Origin: a virus
Length of the DNA stretch: 27,166 nt
Virus record (IMG/VR): IMGVR_UViG_3300048836_001236
Location: 1-27,166 of that record
Reading direction: 5' to 3' (one strand)
The notes under the pieces: generated by a model
The model's input: only the letters and a program-made list of their open reading frames with translations
What the model was told of the DNA's origin: nothing
Databases searched by the model: none
Shown here: in pieces, positions 17,838-27,166 of the stretch
Numbering within the stretch: position 1 is the first letter of the stretch
Layout of the letters: each line of letters opens with the position of its first letter
Made by a program: the position numbers and the translations under genes

Positions 17838-18195
17838 CGTACTGCGCCCCCTCATTTGCTATAACTAGTAATGCATCAAAGAGTGTGCCGTCAAACTCGA
17901 TTGCGTTTTTGCCTTTATGGTACCTTCCTTTTACGATAAAATGCGCTTCACGCTCAAATAGCGGATCGTCTTTTACTGACTCTATCAACGCTTCTGTCTT
18001 ATAATGCTCGCCGATAAAAATATAGTCCAGCTCTCCGCTGTGGCTCACGCCGGATATATCTATTCCGTCATACCTTGCATCATCCCGCGGAAGCACGCCA
18101 TACCCTTCTTGTGCTACCCCGGCGCGTGTCTTTACTTCTATTCCGTCTTTGATGATGTAGCTTGATCTTCCAAGCGAAACAGTGAACGTATCCAT
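17830..18195 (-). CDS. Small structural protein next to MuF
   Basis: A 121-aa mostly beta protein (FTVSLGRSSYIIKDGIEVKTRAG, DISGVSHSGELDYIFIGEHYKTEALIE, REAHFIVKGRYHKGKNAIEFDGTLFDALLVIANEG). It is not recognised. Its ATG lies 58 bases inside the 3' end of the MuF gene and has a near-perfect AAAGGAG ribosome site six bases upstream, so the overlap is genuine. The location between MuF and gp10 suggests a head-tail joining or decoration protein. Confidence 0.5.
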   Translation of the reverse strand: MDTFTVSLGRSSYIIKDGIEVKTRAGVAQEGYGVLPRDDARYDGIDISGVSHSGELDYIFIGEHYKTEALIESVKDDPLFEREAHFIVKGRYHKGKNAIEFDGTLFDALLVIANEGAQYDV

Positions 18196-19400
18196 GATAT
18201 CTCCTTTGTGACTTCTGTCGAAAGTTTTCTGTCTTTGTTGTAGGCTGTTGCCTTCTCTTCTGGTTTAAACACGGTATGTATCTCTCCGTCAAGAAAGACG
18301 AAAAACAGGTTAGTTTGTTTGCTGTACGCTATCACCCTGTCTTCAAATCTTGCATGCATTGAGATGCGGTCAAGCGTGCCAAGTCCGGCACGAATCTCCT
18401 TAAGCGTCAGCCCGTGTTTATCTACTTCTTCATGATCAAGACTGTCCTGGGTCAAGACCCGCTCATACCCAAACGCGTCCACATGAGAAAAAAGCACCTC
18501 TTTTCCTTTGTACTTCTCTCCGGGCAACAGCGAACCGTTCACATTCTTACCGTCAATTTTTACATTTTGTCTAAAGTATGCTACCACAATCGTCCTGCAT
18601 CTGAAATGATACGGCGGCAGCGCCACATCTGAGGGAAGTTTTCCGAAGATCGGTTGCGACTGCCACCTGGAGGCTTTTTTCTTCTCTTCGATACTTTCTG
18701 CAGAGGTGATCGCGTCTGCCTGGTCCTTTGCCGATTTTATGGGGATGATCCGCCCGTGCATACTGCGGCACACCGCGGAGGTCTTCTTGTCCATCACCGC
18801 TATGACCTTTACCTGTTCCACACCGGCCTTTTCAAACTGGTACGCCCTGGTAATAGACTGGCTCTGCCTGATCACATGGTCGCTCACCCCCTCAAAGTAC
18901 CGCGCGCTCTCGTCGATCACCCCTGTAAACTCTTCGCGAAGCGTCTCACCAAGCTCGCCTATCTTTACCTCCCCCTTCATCGCCTCACCGATGATCTCTT
19001 TAAGCCTGCCCTGTGTATTCGCCGCGCCGTCTTCCTTCATCCACACCAAAGCCCGTTGCATCGACTCGAGTACTTGCGCGTCGGTCTGGTCAAAGACAAA
19101 TGCCGCGCCCACTTCCGCGGCGGCAGCGGCAGCGGCCTTTTCGTGCAGCGCTTCGAGTGCGGCGGTGTCCAGTGTATACCCGAGGCTTTGTATCTTTGCT
19201 TCCACGATCCGAAGCAGCGTCTCTTTGTCGATATTTTCCACATTTTGCGTCACATAAACCAGCAGGTCTGCAACAAACTTCTCCGTCTCTTTTTTGTTCT
19301 GCGCTTTGACGTCCCTAAGGTAAGAGGCGATAGCCTCTTCTATCTCATCGGTTTTCGTCTTTTTGGCTTTGAGCAGGCTCACCAGCAATGTACTCTTCAT
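18138..19400 (-). CDS. MuF/SPP1 gp7 head morphogenesis protein with nuclease-like tail
   Basis: A 420-aa protein. Residues 90-280 match the phage Mu F / SPP1 gp7 head morphogenesis domain: helices with ESMQRALVWMKEDGAANTQGRLKEIIGEAM, then VIAVMDKKTSAVCRSMHGRIIP (C211, H216) and LPPYHFRCRTIVV (C268). Residues 310-395 form an extra domain (ERVLTQDSLDHEEVDKHGLTLKEIRAGLGTLDRISMHARFEDRVIAYSKQTNLFFVFLDGEIHTVFKPEE). Its pattern, two helices and then strands ending in 'v...dGeihT.F.P', resembles the barnase/EndoU/colicin/RelE-like (PBECR) nuclease domains seen at the ends of such phage proteins. The start at 19400 is near a GGAAGAG site inside the upstream gene. Confidence 0.82.
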   Translation of the reverse strand: MKSTLLVSLLKAKKTKTDEIEEAIASYLRDVKAQNKKETEKFVADLLVYVTQNVENIDKETLLRIVEAKIQSLGYTLDTAALEALHEKAAAAAAAEVGAAFVFDQTDAQVLESMQRALVWMKEDGAANTQGRLKEIIGEAMKGEVKIGELGETLREEFTGVIDESARYFEGVSDHVIRQSQSITRAYQFEKAGVEQVKVIAVMDKKTSAVCRSMHGRIIPIKSAKDQADAITSAESIEEKKKASRWQSQPIFGKLPSDVALPPYHFRCRTIVVAYFRQNVKIDGKNVNGSLLPGEKYKGKEVLFSHVDAFGYERVLTQDSLDHEEVDKHGLTLKEIRAGLGTLDRISMHARFEDRVIAYSKQTNLFFVFLDGEIHTVFKPEEKATAYNKDRKLSTEVTKEISWIRSLFRLEDQATSSKTE

Positions 19401-19563
19401 ACTCTTCCTTCTCCTCTTTCGTAAATAACGTAAAACTAGGCCGCTCCGTCGTCGTAAACGAAAACCCGCACCTGTCGCAAAAGCGCAGCCGTCTCACCAC
19501 GCCGCCGATTTTCTCTGTTTTTGGGACACAGGTCCGCGCATTCGCGCACTTTGGACACATCAT
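19345..19563 (-). CDS. Zinc-ribbon regulatory protein
   Basis: A 72-aa protein with CPKC (C4, C7 after the tandem Met start) and CDRC (in RFCDRCGFSF), each a CxxC, so one zinc ribbon. The surroundings (RRLRFCDRCGFSFTTTERP) resemble both the NrdR zinc ribbon and the Ogr/Delta late-gene activators of P2-like phages (C..C...F.T.E). It overlaps the MuF start by 56 bases and follows gemA closely. This position, between middle and late genes, would suit a late activator, but the Ogr assignment is a guess. Confidence 0.55.
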   Translation of the reverse strand: MMCPKCANARTCVPKTEKIGGVVRRLRFCDRCGFSFTTTERPSFTLFTKEEKEEYEEYIAGEPAQSQKDENR

Positions 19564-19564
19564 C

Positions 19565-19984
19565 CTATCGCTCCTTGAGTGTATTTTTAAGCGCCACGAT
19601 CACTTTGGTGGCATCGGATTTGGAGAGTTTGTCTACATGCAGGTAGGTATTCCCCGTGATACGCTTCACAAACGCCCTCAGTGCCTTATCCCCTACATCG
19701 TTGGCATACGTGCTCCACAGCCCAAATATCAGGCTGATCTGCGCCTCGGTAACCTCTTTGGAACGGTCTTTGATGATCGGCAGGTCCGGGATGTCATAGT
19801 TAAAGTACTTCACTAAAACCAGAAGTTGAGGGATGTTTAGCTCTTTTGAACTCCTCTCCCCGAAGTGCTTCTCAAGAAGCGCTCTGTACTCTTCGTCCTC
19901 CTCTTTGTAGTACCCGCGGTATCGTTCAGATACATGCAGCTGCTTGATCAGCTCTTTTTTGTAGGCTTTTTGTTTGTGTGTCAT
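19565..19984 (-). CDS. gemA: GemA/Mu gp16-like regulatory protein (DUF1018)
   Basis: A 139-aa protein typical of the Mu gp16/GemA family. The N-terminal helix pair KAYKKELIKQLHVSERYRGYYKEEDEEYRALLEKHFGERSSKELNIPQLLVLVKYF contains the conserved 'k.Y..ll....g..S..eLs..el..vl..f'. The C-terminal part (VTEAQISLIFGLWSTYANDVGDKALRAFVKRITG) matches the family's second half 't..Q...i..lW..la.....d....L..fv.r..g', ending SKSDATKVIVALKN. GemA modulates host genes during Mu development. It overlaps the end of the RepA-like gene by four bases. Confidence 0.85.
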   Translation of the reverse strand: MTHKQKAYKKELIKQLHVSERYRGYYKEEDEEYRALLEKHFGERSSKELNIPQLLVLVKYFNYDIPDLPIIKDRSKEVTEAQISLIFGLWSTYANDVGDKALRAFVKRITGNTYLHVDKLSKSDATKVIVALKNTLKER

Positions 19985-20922
19985 GCTTTCTCCTCCAAAA
20001 GATGATAGATATGATTGTTGCGGCTTTTTTCCTCGACGCGCCAGTACTTGCCCGTCAGCTCGCGCACCAGCCTTTTCCCGTTCCGGTCAGACGGCACGGC
20101 GTATCCCATGCCGAGGATCATCTTCGACGTGCTCAACCCCTCGGGCGCATTTTTCAGCGCAGCGATGCCCGCTTCTACGGCCTGCTTGTCCTCTTTGCTC
20201 ATCCCTGAACTGACGGGGTCATACTCGCTAAGACAGAGCGTTTTGGTATCAACACTCCATTTGCAGTCCTTAACTAACCCTCTTGCGTGCGTGACGGTCA
20301 GCTGGTAATTGATGATGCCGTTTAGCTCCCCTGTTTGTTTCATGCTGTAGACATTGTCAGGGGTGTTGATAAACGCCTGGCTTCCCGATATCCTTCTCTC
20401 ATTTTTGGTCGCATGGTGCAAGATGATGACCGTGCCGCCCGCATCGCGTATCCGTACACAGTGCTTCATAAACTCCGTCGCCTGCGTCTTTGAATCCGTA
20501 TCGACAAAATCCTTGGTAGTATCAAGGAAAAAAGCCACCCCCGCATACGCCTCCCGTACCGCCGCAGAGGCTATCGCGCCGAGCTGTTCAAGCGGGTCGC
20601 ACCCTATGGTCCCCCGTGTGAGATAGTGGATCTTCTGATGTACGATCAGCAGCTCGTCTACTTTTCTGTCTTTCAGCGTCGAGACAGAGTTGTCCATATC
20701 CAGATAGTAGATCTCGTCGATGTCCTCATCCGAGGCTATTTTTTTTGCCATACCGTAGGCAAGCCACGTTTTGCCTTGCTTGGGGGGCGAATAGATCAGC
20801 GTGATTGACCGTGAAAAAACAAAGTCTTCGATGTAGGCGACCTTGTCGTCGATCTCAAAATCCTTAGGCGTCAATATCTTGCCATGCGCCCAAACAAATT
20901 TTGAACCTTTTTTCTCCTCCAT
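19981..20922 (-). CDS. RepA-type hexameric ATPase (RecA fold, AAA_25-like)
   Basis: A 313-aa protein; I take the ATG of MEEKKGSKFVWAHG (20922) as start because it has an AGGGGGAT/AGGAAA ribosome site and lies five bases after the previous stop, rather than the upstream ATG that overlaps the earlier gene. Residues 10-35 carry the 'ltp.df.i....y.i.df.....it' entry strand typical of phage RepA-like ATPases, with Walker A PPKQGKTW (46-53), Walker B FFLDTTKDF (131-139) and a sensor region VIILHHATKNERR (165-177). The C-terminal 80 residues look like a winged helix. Related proteins act as replicative helicases or loaders. Mu itself does not encode one. Confidence 0.72.
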   Translation of the reverse strand: MEEKKGSKFVWAHGKILTPKDFEIDDKVAYIEDFVFSRSITLIYSPPKQGKTWLAYGMAKKIASDEDIDEIYYLDMDNSVSTLKDRKVDELLIVHQKIHYLTRGTIGCDPLEQLGAIASAAVREAYAGVAFFLDTTKDFVDTDSKTQATEFMKHCVRIRDAGGTVIILHHATKNERRISGSQAFINTPDNVYSMKQTGELNGIINYQLTVTHARGLVKDCKWSVDTKTLCLSEYDPVSSGMSKEDKQAVEAGIAALKNAPEGLSTSKMILGMGYAVPSDRNGKRLVRELTGKYWRVEEKSRNNHIYHLLEEKA

Positions 20923-20926
20923 TTTC

Positions 20927-21382
20927 CTATCCCCCTTGATTATTTGCCTTGATCTGCGCTCTGATGCGCTCAAAGCGCTTTTTGATGCCCTCGTCCGCAG
21001 CGAGGATTTCAAAATCCCCCGTTGCTCTGTCAGCGGCGCTTTCGTTTTTTTCTGTTGCCGGTGCCGGCTTTGGTTTAAATGCGGCCCGAACCCTCCTGAA
21101 CGTGATAGACTGCTTGAGGTTTTCGGCTCTATATATCTCCCTCATCTCCCCCAATATCTGCTCTTTTTGCATCCCAAATTCGCTTACGATGCCGGGATGC
21201 GTCAGATAAAGCACAAGCTCGTCTCCCATCAGCGAACCGTGGGAAAAAAACGGCTGCATCCTCTCCCCCAGCGCAGCGCTCAGTTTGCGTATCGCTTCAT
21301 GTTCCCTCAGTTTCGGGCTGCTCAGTGCCGTACCTCCGAGGCTTTGGTCATGTTCTTCGCATACCTTGTCTGCGATTGCCAT
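20927..21382 (-). CDS. DciA (DUF721)-like putative helicase loader
   Basis: A 151-aa protein. Residues 25-105 resemble the DUF721/DciA core: helices KLREHEAIRKLSAALGERMQPFF, a strand DELVLYLTHPGIVSEFGMQKEQILGEMREIY, and ITFRRVRAAFKPK. The C-terminal end (GDFEILAADEGIKKRFERIRAQIKAN) matches my memory of the C-terminal tail of DUF721 proteins of Campylobacterota ('...f...d..ik..fekIk..Ik.n'). DciA loads the DnaB helicase in bacteria lacking DnaC. It is the first gene after the terminator at 21405-21428 and directly precedes the RepA-like ATPase. Similarity is by eye and moderate; a different small replication protein is possible. Confidence 0.5.
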   Translation of the reverse strand: MAIADKVCEEHDQSLGGTALSSPKLREHEAIRKLSAALGERMQPFFSHGSLMGDELVLYLTHPGIVSEFGMQKEQILGEMREIYRAENLKQSITFRRVRAAFKPKPAPATEKNESAADRATGDFEILAADEGIKKRFERIRAQIKANNQGG

Positions 21383-21404
21383 CTCTCCTCCTTTTTTATA
21401 AACT

Positions 21405-21428
21405 TAAAAAAGCCCCCATGGGGAGGCT
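21405..21428 (-). terminator. Rho-independent terminator after the endolysin gene
   Basis: On the minus strand AGCC(T)CCCC, loop, GGGGGCT and then TTTTTT: a strong stem (one mismatch or bulged A) followed directly by a U run, 25 bases after the endolysin stop (21454) and before the next gene's ribosome site. It is the only gap of any size inside the early/middle region, and it separates the early operon from the DciA-RepA-GemA unit. Confidence 0.78.
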
Positions 21429-21453
21429 CTATAAATCTATGTTTCCGGCCAAC

Positions 21454-21891
21454 TCATGCCGTCGCCGTCCCTACGAGTCCGCGCGCATCGTAAAGCTTCC
21501 TCATGTCCGCGCCGCTGACGGGGTCGCGCGTGATCTGCCAGTGCGGCAGGTCCCAACCCCATTTGTCATACCCCCACTCGATAGGCAGGCTGTGGCGGCG
21601 GATGACGGTGCGCATCGCCTCTGCGATTTCCGTATAGTATTTCTCCTCCCAACTCGGCTTCCCGTCCACATATGCCACAAGGTCCACTGCCAACCCGTAC
21701 AGGTGATACGAATTGTTTGTTTTGCTAACCCCCCTTGCGACCAGCTTCTCCTGCTCCTTTTGCGTCCGAAGCCCGTCCAGTACCATAAAATCCTGCTTGG
21801 TGATTTTGATCGCCTCTGTTACGGCAAACGCCAGATACGGGTGTACGCCCACGAGCTCCCTCAGGGAGTTTTTTCCAAGGACAAATGCCAT
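21454..21891 (-). CDS. M15 family peptidoglycan peptidase (endolysin)
   Basis: A 145-aa protein of the M15 (L-Ala-D-Glu / D-Ala-D-Ala) peptidase family, whose members cut cell wall cross-bridges. Zinc-ligand and catalytic positions are visible: SYHLYGLAVDL (H63, D70; motif SxHxxGxAxD) and WDLPHWQI (D114, H117; the D-x2-H signature). The N-terminus LGKNSLRELVGVHPYL is the usual start for this family. It has no signal peptide or membrane anchor, so it depends on the holin (8746-9162). It sits at the end of the early operon, not with the lysis genes. Confidence 0.85.
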   Translation of the reverse strand: MAFVLGKNSLRELVGVHPYLAFAVTEAIKITKQDFMVLDGLRTQKEQEKLVARGVSKTNNSYHLYGLAVDLVAYVDGKPSWEEKYYTEIAEAMRTVIRRHSLPIEWGYDKWGWDLPHWQITRDPVSGADMRKLYDARGLVGTATA

Positions 21892-21900
21892 ATCCTCCCC

Positions 21901-22512
21901 CTACATCGACGCAAAATCAAGCGAGACATTTTCCCACTTCTCATCCACGCTTTTTCGTTTCAAAAAGCGTATGTAGCTTTTGCTTCCCACGATCTCGACC
22001 GCCTCATCGATGATCTGCATCGCCTCTTTCCATTTCGGGTGGCTTATTTTGTACCCTTTGAGGCCTAGGATCATTTTGGCGTTTACGTTGCCTTGCTTGT
22101 CCACGTCAAAGACTTTGGTGATCAGCGTCTGGATGTCTGCGCTGGCTTCAGCCGTGATCTCTTTGAGATACTCGTCTATCTTCTCTTTTGCCAGCGTAAG
22201 TTTCTCGTCAAAATCGATATGCTGTGCCACAGCGATCTGTATTTTTGCAAGTCCGTCGTAGCTCTCGATGGAGATGTTGCCCTTTGGCGAGTTGCGCATC
22301 GGGTCAAGCCCGTATTTTTCGCGCATCATGCTCATGTAGTCGCCGATCTCGTCGGTGACGTATCTCTTAAAGTGCGTCATGACATCCACGCCCTTTTCGG
22401 CGCGCCGGATGATCTTAGTCACCAGCTCCGTCTTCAGTTTTTCCTCATGCGGCACCAGGTCCGGGTGCACCGGTTCGCCGCGCTTGTTTGTCCACATTTT
22501 TACTTCACTCAT
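21901..22512 (-). CDS. DUF3164 family protein of Mu-like phages
   Basis: A 203-aa protein. The motifs WTNKRGEPVHPDLVPHEEKLKTELVTKI at the start and GNISIESYDGLAKIQIAVAQHIDFDEKLTLAKEKIDEYLKEI in the middle are the hallmark of DUF3164, a family confined to Mu-type phages and usually placed between B and gemA. The C-terminal part (GNVNAKMILGLKGYKISHPKWKEAMQIIDEAVEIVGSKSYIRFLKR) is also characteristic. Its molecular role is unknown. It overlaps the previous gene by four bases and lies upstream of the endolysin in the early operon. Confidence 0.85.
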   Translation of the reverse strand: MSEVKMWTNKRGEPVHPDLVPHEEKLKTELVTKIIRRAEKGVDVMTHFKRYVTDEIGDYMSMMREKYGLDPMRNSPKGNISIESYDGLAKIQIAVAQHIDFDEKLTLAKEKIDEYLKEITAEASADIQTLITKVFDVDKQGNVNAKMILGLKGYKISHPKWKEAMQIIDEAVEIVGSKSYIRFLKRKSVDEKWENVSLDFASM

Positions 22513-23832: not shown

Positions 23833-24352
23833 CATTCGCCTCCTCTTGTATTGCCGTATACGCGGTTTCAAATGCGTTTTTGCTCAGGCCGCTTCGCGCC
23901 ATGAGCTCCTCTTTGGTAATCGTCCCGGTTTGGTTTTTCAGTATCTGCCGTATCCTCCCTTTGTCATATTCCATCGGGTCAACGGGCCGTATCAGCCCCT
24001 CGGCGTTGACCGTGACGGGCAGTTCCATATACGGGTCTTTGACCTGCATCTCCCTTTCGTTCCTGTCAAACAGCCGCTTTTGTTTTTCCACCCATACCGG
24101 GCAAAGGATCCCCGTGTTTTTTACCAGTGTATAGACCCTGGATACAAACGCTCTGGGTGATTTTTTGCTTCGCACCTCCTGCCTTTGCTTCACATACCCC
24201 GCCCGTTCCAGCTGCCCGAAAAACGCCCGCAGGCTCTCTTCGCCCATAGCGCTTAAAACCAGCAGCTCATCGATCACGCATAACCGGTTGCGCCGCAGGT
24301 ACTCCCACACGAACTGCCGTTCGCTTTTTCTTCTTGTTTTACACTTTGTCAT
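23801..24352 (-). CDS. Winged-helix-like regulatory or replication protein
   Basis: A 183-aa protein. Residues 10-75 (FVWEYLRRNRLCVIDELLVLSAMGEESLRAFFGQLERAGYVKQRQEVRSKKSPRAFVSRVYTLVKNTG) look like a winged helix: helix, HTH-like turn, then a basic wing. The C-terminal part (DKGRIRQILKNQTGTITKEELMARSGLSKNAFETAYTAIQEE) looks like a second HTH (KEELMARSGLSKNAFETAY). The ATG overlaps the end of the MuB-like gene by 14 bases. In related phages genes between B and the DUF3164 gene are often early regulators. No family named. Confidence 0.5.
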   Translation of the reverse strand: MTKCKTRRKSERQFVWEYLRRNRLCVIDELLVLSAMGEESLRAFFGQLERAGYVKQRQEVRSKKSPRAFVSRVYTLVKNTGILCPVWVEKQKRLFDRNEREMQVKDPYMELPVTVNAEGLIRPVDPMEYDKGRIRQILKNQTGTITKEELMARSGLSKNAFETAYTAIQEEANDAPMDQKKAV

Positions 24353-25079
24353 GCCGTTTTGCCTCTATCTTTGCTTGTCTGTACAGCGCAAGGTCGATCT
24401 CATGCACGTCGTTGGCATCGCACCAAAGCTCAGTGAGTTTCAGGATGTTTTTCACCGCCCGCACGCTTCTGTATTTGCCGACCAGGTACGCCCTGAGGTC
24501 TTGCTTGATTTTGATGGGGCGAAACCCGTCTTTATCCTCGATCCCGCACAAGTCGATGAACTTCTCCAGGTCATCCCCGCGCGTCGCGCCGAAGCTCTTC
24601 TTGACCACGATGCGGTCATAAAGATACTTGTACCGTTGAAGCTTCGCCTCGACCTGGTCCATCCCCACAAACAGCACGGGGATGTGCGCAAGGTCGTGGA
24701 TGTCGCGGATATTCTCCAGTATCCCGATCCGATCAGCCCGTATGGCACGGTCTATCTCATCCACGATCAGCGGGCGCGGCTCATAGATCAGCGTTGCGAT
24801 GATGCGCTTGACCACATCCTGCTGTTTGCCGTCTTTGCTGACCCCGCACGCTTCGGCGATGTCTTTGATGATCGTCGAAGGCGTCGAAGACTCCATGATC
24901 GTCACAAACAGCGCGTCAAATTCTTTAGCCAGCCGCTCCAGCGCGGTGGTCTTCCCGAGCCCAGGGTTGCCGTATCCCAGTCCGATGCGCTCCGGGTTGC
25001 CTTCCATATCGATCAGAGTTGACAGCAGTTCGTACATTTTTGTATAATTCTCCGTCTTCACAAATTCTCGTTTACTCAA
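24339..25079 (-). CDS. B: MuB/TniB-like AAA+ transposition ATPase
   Basis: A 246-aa AAA+ ATPase. Walker A GNPGLGKTT (37-45) and Walker B PLIVDEID (103-110) are intact; GVSKDGKQQ and the 'R' at DRIGILENIRDIHDLAHIPVLFVGMDQ follow as sensor elements. In Mu, MuB binds target DNA and activates the MuA transposase. This protein is shorter than Mu B (312 aa) and lacks its N-terminal HTH, closer to TniB-type. The start is TTG (25079), with AAAGGAT six bases upstream. It follows MuA with a 74-base gap. Confidence 0.85.
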   Translation of the reverse strand: MSKREFVKTENYTKMYELLSTLIDMEGNPERIGLGYGNPGLGKTTALERLAKEFDALFVTIMESSTPSTIIKDIAEACGVSKDGKQQDVVKRIIATLIYEPRPLIVDEIDRAIRADRIGILENIRDIHDLAHIPVLFVGMDQVEAKLQRYKYLYDRIVVKKSFGATRGDDLEKFIDLCGIEDKDGFRPIKIKQDLRAYLVGKYRSVRAVKNILKLTELWCDANDVHEIDLALYRQAKIEAKRHDKV

Positions 25080-25153: not shown

Positions 25154-27166
25154 TTACCCCGCTTTGGTTTTTTCCCACTCTTCCAGCGCCATCGCCCACA
25201 ATCCAGGGTTCTTGTCCGCAAGCCGTTGGGTATTCTCATCCACCATCCCGTTTTCCATGTCGAAAGTGAAACGCTCCGACACGGAGCCAAATATCGGACG
25301 CCCGTTAAGCAGCACTGTCTCTTTTGTAGGGTCTTGCAGTGTTTCCTGCTCCGCATCGCCATAGCCGCTCTCTTCTGCCAAAGAAGCCCGCACCCCCGAT
25401 ACCGCTTCGCTCTTGAACTCCAGCGCCGCTTCTATCATATCGTTTTGGCGTATCCCCGCCTCGTCGATAAGTGCGAGGTACCTTTCGGGCTTTTCACGCC
25501 TGATTTCACTCAGCTGCGCGATCAGCCGTTTGGCCTTCGCATCAAAGAAGCGCGATGCCATGTACTCCGCACGGCTCTTTCCGACAAGCTCCGCATTCTC
25601 CGCCTTGCAGATAAACTTCATCTCAAGGTCATACACATACAGATACCCCAGGTCATCATCGCTCAGCGCCCACACGCTCTCGCCGACCCGCAAAGAAAGC
25701 GCATCGTGCCAGTAGGAGAGTTTCTTCCATACGATCCCTTTTTTTGAGACCTTTTTCTTCTCGCTCAGCCCCGTCAGCACGTCCAGCACCCGCTCATCGC
25801 TGATGCGCCGCACCGGTATCGCGCACTCGTTCCACCGGAAAAGTGGCGTTTGGTTGATGCCGCGGTGCTGCCGGTTTTCGTAGCGGTTCATCCATTTATC
25901 GATCCGCGCCTCAAGCTGCTCTCGGCTCAGCGTCGTGGGGATGTACGCATCCATCGCCTTTTGCGCCGCGGCAAGTTTCTTGGCCGCCGCGTGCCCGTGG
26001 CGTATCAGCTCATTTGCCCGCTCTTTGGCCCGTATCTTCGCCTCATACGTCTCCCTGTTTTGCAGCCCCTCTCTCTCGGCGACGCTGTGCCCGATGTAGC
26101 CGGGAAGCTCCTCGAACAGGTCCCGTGTGAGCGTCCCGAAAAACCGTTCGATGTGCGGCTTTTGCCACCCGCTGTAGGGCATCGTAAACTGCTGCTCTAT
26201 CTTCAGCCTCGAACAGGTGTACTCAAACGCACGGCTCCTGTACTCCTTCCCGTTGTCCAGCTTCACCGCCTCAGGCACCCCAAGCTTCGTGATCCCTTTT
26301 TTGAACACCCTCCCGAGCGCGGAAGCGTTTGCCGTAGGGGTCACCACCACTACCGCGCGGCGGCTGTACACGTCGATCGCCGCGGAGAGCTGGTAGCGTA
26401 TCCCGTCCTCGCACATCACGTCCACCGGCGTGCCGTCCATTTCCCACAGCGCATTGTTGTACGCCGCGGCTTCTGAAGCGTTCCCCGGCGCGGGGCGCAG
26501 TTTGTTGTTCGCCTCCGCGGGGTTGTCCGCAAACGTCGCGATGAGGACATTCTCGGCTTTGTACCGGGCGATCATCCGGCTGATCGTCGCGTAGCTGGGC
26601 GTATTGCCCCCGAACGCCTCTTGCATGTACGTATGCAGTTTCGTCCTGCGGATGGAAGGGTTTTCCAAAAAGAGCCGCTCCACAAACGTGTACATCTCTT
26701 CGCTGTAGCTTCGGTTGTTGCTGCTTTTGCCGCGCGTATCCAGCAGATGATCCAGCGCCGTCACCCCCTCCTCCTCGCACCGCTTCACCGTCTCAAGCCA
26801 CCGAAACAGCTTCGATTTGGTGGGTGCTATCTTGCGGTACTTGTACGCCACCCTGGCAAGAAACCTCTTCCACCCCTCTTTCTCGGGGCGGTTGCGGTAG
26901 TCCCGCACCAGCTTCTCTTTTAGCAGCGCCTCTTCCTGCTTCGTCTCGCTGGCAAGCCGCCACGCCGCTGCAAGGTCGCTGTCGCTTGTGTCGATCACCT
27001 CCGCAAACACCTCCTCATAAACATAATGCCCCCGCACCGTCTCGAACCTGAAATGCCTCTCGTTGATCTTGATGTGGGTGGTGCCTGCTTCGACAGCTTT
27101 CTCAACTCTTCTTGTGATTGTCGTCGGATGTATACCAAGTATCGTCCCCAGCTCGCTGCTGTTCAT
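25154..27166 (-). CDS. A: MuA-family transposase (DDE), 5' end at window edge
   Basis: A 670-aa transposase. Residues 1-50 are a HTH (MNSSELGTILGIHPTTITRRVEKA) followed by a short winged element; residues 60-220 contain the DNA-binding region with KLHTYMQEAFGGNTPSYATISRMIARYK. The catalytic DDE triad is D244 (EMDGTPVD), D304 (LDNGKEY) and E340 (PHIERFFGT). The beta-barrel domain lies around 400-520, with FRWNECAIPVRRI and VWKKLSYWHDALSLRVGESVWAL. The extreme C-terminus (NPGLWAMALEEWEKTK) would be the MuB-interacting region. Length matches MuA (663 aa). The ATG is the last codon in the window, so an upstream start cannot be ruled out. Confidence 0.93.
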   Translation of the reverse strand: MNSSELGTILGIHPTTITRRVEKAVEAGTTHIKINERHFRFETVRGHYVYEEVFAEVIDTSDSDLAAAWRLASETKQEEALLKEKLVRDYRNRPEKEGWKRFLARVAYKYRKIAPTKSKLFRWLETVKRCEEEGVTALDHLLDTRGKSSNNRSYSEEMYTFVERLFLENPSIRRTKLHTYMQEAFGGNTPSYATISRMIARYKAENVLIATFADNPAEANNKLRPAPGNASEAAAYNNALWEMDGTPVDVMCEDGIRYQLSAAIDVYSRRAVVVVTPTANASALGRVFKKGITKLGVPEAVKLDNGKEYRSRAFEYTCSRLKIEQQFTMPYSGWQKPHIERFFGTLTRDLFEELPGYIGHSVAEREGLQNRETYEAKIRAKERANELIRHGHAAAKKLAAAQKAMDAYIPTTLSREQLEARIDKWMNRYENRQHRGINQTPLFRWNECAIPVRRISDERVLDVLTGLSEKKKVSKKGIVWKKLSYWHDALSLRVGESVWALSDDDLGYLYVYDLEMKFICKAENAELVGKSRAEYMASRFFDAKAKRLIAQLSEIRREKPERYLALIDEAGIRQNDMIEAALEFKSEAVSGVRASLAEESGYGDAEQETLQDPTKETVLLNGRPIFGSVSERFTFDMENGMVDENTQRLADKNPGLWAMALEEWEKTKAG

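Follow-up and report, generated by a model that had tools for sequence, protein, structure and literature searches.

The 151-aa protein encoded upstream of an ATPase gene and gemA in a Mu-like phage belongs to the DciA family yet is not an orthologue of the host protein. This phage-encoded DciA probably binds the DnaB protein of the host and loads this helicase at transposition forks.

The window, meaning the whole stretch of DNA that was analysed, is a Mu-like virus record of 27,166 nt from Sulfurovum-type bacteria. The genes for the DciA-like protein, the ATPase and GemA are all on the minus strand (Table 1). The sequence-only reading had described a Mu-like phage with a DciA-like gene directly before an ATPase gene. 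Both genes were found where it had placed them, on the minus strand, and the surrounding genes for MuA, MuB, DUF3164 and GemA agree with the Mu-like setting. Only 4 nt separate the stop codon of the DciA-like gene from the ATG of the ATPase gene (20922), and the stop of the ATPase gene overlaps the GemA gene by 4 nt, so that the layout speaks for a single operon. In Mu-like relatives the DciA-like gene is surrounded by MuB, Gam or DUF3164, and GemA, and GemA is nearly always next to it.

Table 1. Features of the replication region and adjacent genes in the window.
Feature	Position	Strand	Evidence or location
MuA	25154-27166		precedes DciA-like gene
MuB	24339-25079		precedes DciA-like gene
DUF3164	21901-22512		precedes DciA-like gene
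M15-type endolysin	21454-21891		precedes DciA-like gene
Terminator-like hairpin with T tail	21409-21430	minus	between endolysin and DciA-like genes; covarying in relatives
DciA (DUF721) homologue, 151 aa, phage-borne branch	20927-21382	minus	Pfam, profile, structure, tree
KH-like DUF721 core, residues 23-102 of DciA-like protein	21077-21316	minus	AlphaFold2 model, PDB matches
C-terminal tail, residues 116-149 of DciA-like protein	20936-21037	minus	hhalign and alignment with host DciA
RecA-fold ATPase (AAA_25, PHROG 6357), 313 aa	19981-20922	minus	Pfam, PHROG, fold search
GemA (PF06252)	19565-19984	minus	Pfam match
Zinc-ribbon gene	19345-19563		after GemA
Mu F-like head gene	18138-19400		after GemA

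A terminator followed by a separate transcription start region had also been proposed for the two genes. The hairpin with its T-rich tail lies just upstream of the DciA-like gene. All nine of its base pairs were kept in five relatives (45 cells pair), three pairs were changed on both sides, and the covariation score was equalled by just 1 of 500 shuffles. The terminator is therefore credible. The start region did not find the same support, as a sigma-70 scan of the minus strand from 20800 to 21700 revealed no promoter-like site.

The Pfam DciA profile (PF05258) matched the 151-aa protein over profile positions 14-85 of 89 with an E-value of 2.7e-4. The score of 21.5 bits for this protein alone is below the gathering cut-off of 24 bits, which is a search threshold and not a biological feature. 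A close relative, G002, scored above the cut-off (24.7 bits), and five of the nine relatives were matched by the Pfam profile. These relatives come from Helicobacter prophages, where they are annotated as hypothetical, and from Sulfurovum and Sulfurimonas prophages. One further candidate relative, L002, was rejected as an antisense chance match. Neither PHROGs nor NCBIfam supplied an informative name for the 151-aa protein.

We built a profile from the nine phage proteins, with no host sequence included. This profile had matches in 368 of 397 genomes of Campylobacterota, mostly a single one per genome, and in all 30 host loci that were read, the matching gene was located between nadB and uvrC. 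The dciA gene of epsilonproteobacteria is known to adjoin uvrC (Brezellec 2016, PMC5109545). The use of DciA by Campylobacterota, which the sequence-only reading had stated, is thus supported by the literature and by the gene placement. When the phage profile was aligned by hhalign to a profile of four host DciA proteins, the probability was 99.1% with an E-value of 8.5e-19 over 128 columns, the tail included. As a comparison of sequence profiles, we consider this value to outweigh the sub-threshold Pfam score. Sequence searches of the PDB were weak. No DciA was matched with the phage profile, and after addition of host sequences 8a3v_C reached an E-value of 0.21 only; the point for the DciA proteins in the PDB is therefore carried by structure comparison.

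The AlphaFold2 model of the 151-aa protein had a mean pLDDT of 79 and the architecture of DciA. The core consists of a helix, two strands, two helices and a strand, and its pLDDT is roughly 90 or higher along most of its length. A linker of low confidence joins it to a C-terminal helix (residues 131-149). The best three PDB matches of the model were 8a3v_C and 8a3v_D, which are Vibrio cholerae DciA in the complex with DnaB, and 7ykm, the DUF721 domain of Deinococcus radiodurans DciA. The E-values of these structure matches were modest (4e-3 to 1e-2), identity to these proteins was only about 15-16%, and aligning the profile to 8a3v did not bring out the tail motif of the Campylobacterota type. 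A DUF721/KH-like domain is nevertheless indicated by the near full-domain Pfam match, sub-threshold here, together with the DciA proteins as top PDB matches. We regard the homology of the 151-aa protein to DciA, which had been suggested by eye, as settled.

Phage and host DciA are alike in the KH-like core, the linker and the C-terminal motif. Their tails share the motif [DE]RATG[DE]FEI..D..[IL]...FE.IR..IK, as seen by hhalign (consensus ERATGeFeI..D..L...FE.Ir..IK) and by alignment, and the C-terminal extension of DciA proteins is thus recognizable by sequence in the phage protein. Identity in the tail was 34% between phage and host, 36% among phage and 42% among host proteins. The corresponding values for the core were 19%, 31% and 46%. 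The DciA proteins studied so far bind DnaB by their C-terminal extension and single-stranded DNA by DUF721 (PMC12547741, PMC9912922). Helix 131-149 is therefore a candidate DnaB-binding helix, and the retention of the tail between phage and host suggests that both have the same target, DnaB of the host. The strong divergence of the core could also indicate a DciA descendant of KH fold that binds single-stranded nucleic acid and has a non-loading role, such as end protection or regulation together with GemA. GemA as an almost constant neighbour and the presence of copies on conjugative-type elements would fit such a role. We regard it as very unlikely, since the tail, the DnaB-binding part of other DciA proteins, is conserved at nearly the host level.

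The host already encodes its own DciA (G001, L022). The phage copy differs from it in its location on a mobile element, in the Mu-like early region beside GemA and not at the nadB-uvrC site, and in its phylogenetic position. In the tree, 40 copies from mobile elements formed one branch apart from 30 host copies with a support of 100/99, and this split was present in 100% of 200 bootstrap trees. The tree is unrooted, comprises Campylobacterota copies only, and several long branches meet in it. In this tree, the single branch argues against repeated recent captures from hosts, and recent capture from the host lineage found no support in the tree. Members of the branch are usually annotated just as hypothetical. 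The dN/dS values of the DciA-like gene were 0.08-0.16, indicating purifying selection.

DciA-like genes of this type were also seen beyond the Mu-like phages (L161 5771-6190, L162 9977-10390, L163 8995-9402 and L164 3947-4468). A ParA-like ORF lies near the gene in L161, and a VirB2-like and a primase-like ORF, both recognized by eye, accompany it in L162. L164, a Campylobacter jejuni plasmid (NZ_CP038863), carries a gene for type IV secretion. These copies look like parts of conjugative elements, and DciA of mobile elements is thus not specific to transposition. In one prophage (L109 6476-6948) the DciA-like gene is split over two frames and is likely a broken copy.

Homology, fold, tail conservation, purifying selection, the single mobile lineage and the recurrent early-operon site beside GemA were all obtained by computation, and from these we infer DnaB binding, helicase loading and action at transposition forks. 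The C-terminal helix, which keeps the tail sequence of host DciA, would bind host DnaB, while the KH-like DUF721 domain, joined to the tail by a flexible linker, would contact single-stranded DNA. In this way the phage DciA would help to place DnaB on the forks that result from strand transfer by MuA. In Escherichia coli, Mu forks receive DnaB from the DnaB-DnaC complex via PriA (PMC3334882). Since the phage DciA is encoded in an early operon beside GemA and the hosts use DciA, bringing DnaB to transposition forks is the simplest reading. The DciA of the host weighs against it, as the need for a second DciA is left unexplained.

The main rival is a decoy or takeover factor, which would use the DciA tail to fill the site for loaders on host DnaB and so stop replication of the host, or the action of its DciA, instead of loading helicase for the phage. 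The conserved tail next to a diverged core would fit such a factor, loaders described in the literature use a common site on DnaB and replace one another in evolution (PMC9912922), and Mu-like relatives without the DciA-like gene exist. However, the KH-like core, which would be superfluous for a pure decoy, is kept and folds as DciA, the gene is part of an early replication operon beside GemA, and a toxic gene would demand tight repression in prophage carriers. We therefore consider a decoy function rather unlikely.

The ATPase has 313 aa when translated from the ATG; a version of 343 aa starting at a TTG is mechanically possible. It scored above the cut-off of AAA_25 (PF13481), the family of the RSF1010 RepA-like ATPases, and matched PHROG 6357 with an E-value of 1.5e-52. 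It has a RecA-family core with the Walker A motif SPPKQGKT, as expected of a RepA-type protein, and its C-terminal segment is winged-helix-like. The dN/dS values of 0.04-0.06 indicate purifying selection. By fold, KaiC, RecA and the motor domain of DnaB were matched at similar scores, whereas RepA itself was missing from the best 50 fold matches. The label RepA-type, given to the ATPase by the sequence-only reading, is fair at the level of the superfamily; a helicase or loader role is putative. With its AAA_25 domain and RecA/KaiC/DnaB fold, the protein is not an AAA+ loader of the DnaC/DnaI type, and an ATPase domain is absent from the DciA-like protein.

We also surveyed Campylobacterota for joint occurrence of the two genes, which had been described as a helicase-delivery module. 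GemA was found at 73 places in 61 of 397 genomes. The count covered the 57 Mu-like loci in which the upstream sequence was long enough and a Mu-type marker besides GemA was present. Both genes were present in 6 loci, the DciA-like gene only in 18, the ATPase gene only in 16 and neither in 17 (odds ratio 0.35, two-sided Fisher p = 0.10). The count of 6 includes one locus with a DciA fragment of 52 aa and one with the ATPase gene beyond GemA. L116 was scored as ATPase only, though both genes are present, the DciA-like gene being upstream of a MuA-sized ORF. After removal of near-copies, the counts were 3, 9, 12 and 13 (p = 0.29). A sub-threshold search of the loci with neither gene and of a sample of the ATPase-only loci detected no hidden DciA-like gene. 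Co-occurrence over the 57 loci was thus not above chance; if anything, the two genes avoid each other. A conserved module is not compatible with these numbers, and the assignment as a loader is unaffected. Given the 17 loci with neither gene and the 16 with the ATPase gene only, the DciA-like gene is dispensable for the Mu-like lifestyle.

The pair is stable in the close relatives of the window (L003, L004, L012, L013 and L014), and the genes are also adjacent in L005 and L072. Together with the short spacing in the window and the resemblance of the ATPase fold to DnaB, among other RecA-family proteins, this would be consistent with a dedicated pair, in which the ATPase is a RepA-like hexameric helicase or a loading motor that is delivered by the DciA-like protein. 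The lack of a positive association over the 57 loci and the variable order make such a pair quite unlikely: in L020 the DciA-like gene follows the ATPase gene, and in L160 (7684-11614) GemA lies between an upstream DciA-like gene and a downstream, diverged ATPase gene, so that the position of the ATPase gene is not fixed. We conclude that the ATPase gene is an optional, independent gene of the replication region and not an obligate partner.

In L118 an intact ATPase gene is located beside a DciA-like remnant of 52 aa. In Mu-like loci of the Aliarcobacter/Sulfurimonas type that lack the DciA-like gene (L016 4715-5020, L017 4618-4998, L018 4672-5001 and L126 5410-5730), the ATPase gene is immediately preceded by a gene for a conserved protein of 100 aa (VNTGxxKLDEAY...). 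This protein may be a functional stand-in for the DciA-like protein.

The job proposed here for the phage DciA, bringing host DnaB to phage forks, is the same as that of DnaC/DnaI and lambda P, and the site on DnaB is probably also the same (PMC9912922), although the folds of these loaders differ from that of phage DciA. In the published view, DciA is the ancestral chromosomal loader, which was displaced by the phage-derived genes for DnaC/DnaI (PMC5109545); here, the phage itself carries the DciA type. A search of the open-access full-text literature yielded no report of a phage-encoded DciA. We lean towards the view that mobile elements of Campylobacterota keep an old, separate DciA lineage that captures host DnaB at transposition forks and perhaps at conjugative forks. 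On phages, this lineage would correspond to the loader of the chromosome, and it would be a mirror image of DnaC/DnaI, phage loaders that moved to chromosomes. A DciA branch on mobile elements means that the traffic of loaders is not limited to the DnaC type. It also offers natural cases in which a host and a phage DciA would work on the same DnaB within a single cell, and it opens a way to study how replication of transposable phages begins in bacteria without DnaC.

Two further genes of the region were conspicuous. The gene for the M15-type endolysin lies within the early replication region, with DUF3164 on one side and the DciA-like gene on the other, and the same placement was seen in L004, L012 and L013. 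The gene directly after GemA encodes an NrdR-like zinc-ribbon protein of 72 aa (Pfam E-value 4e-7), which is possibly a late-gene activator.
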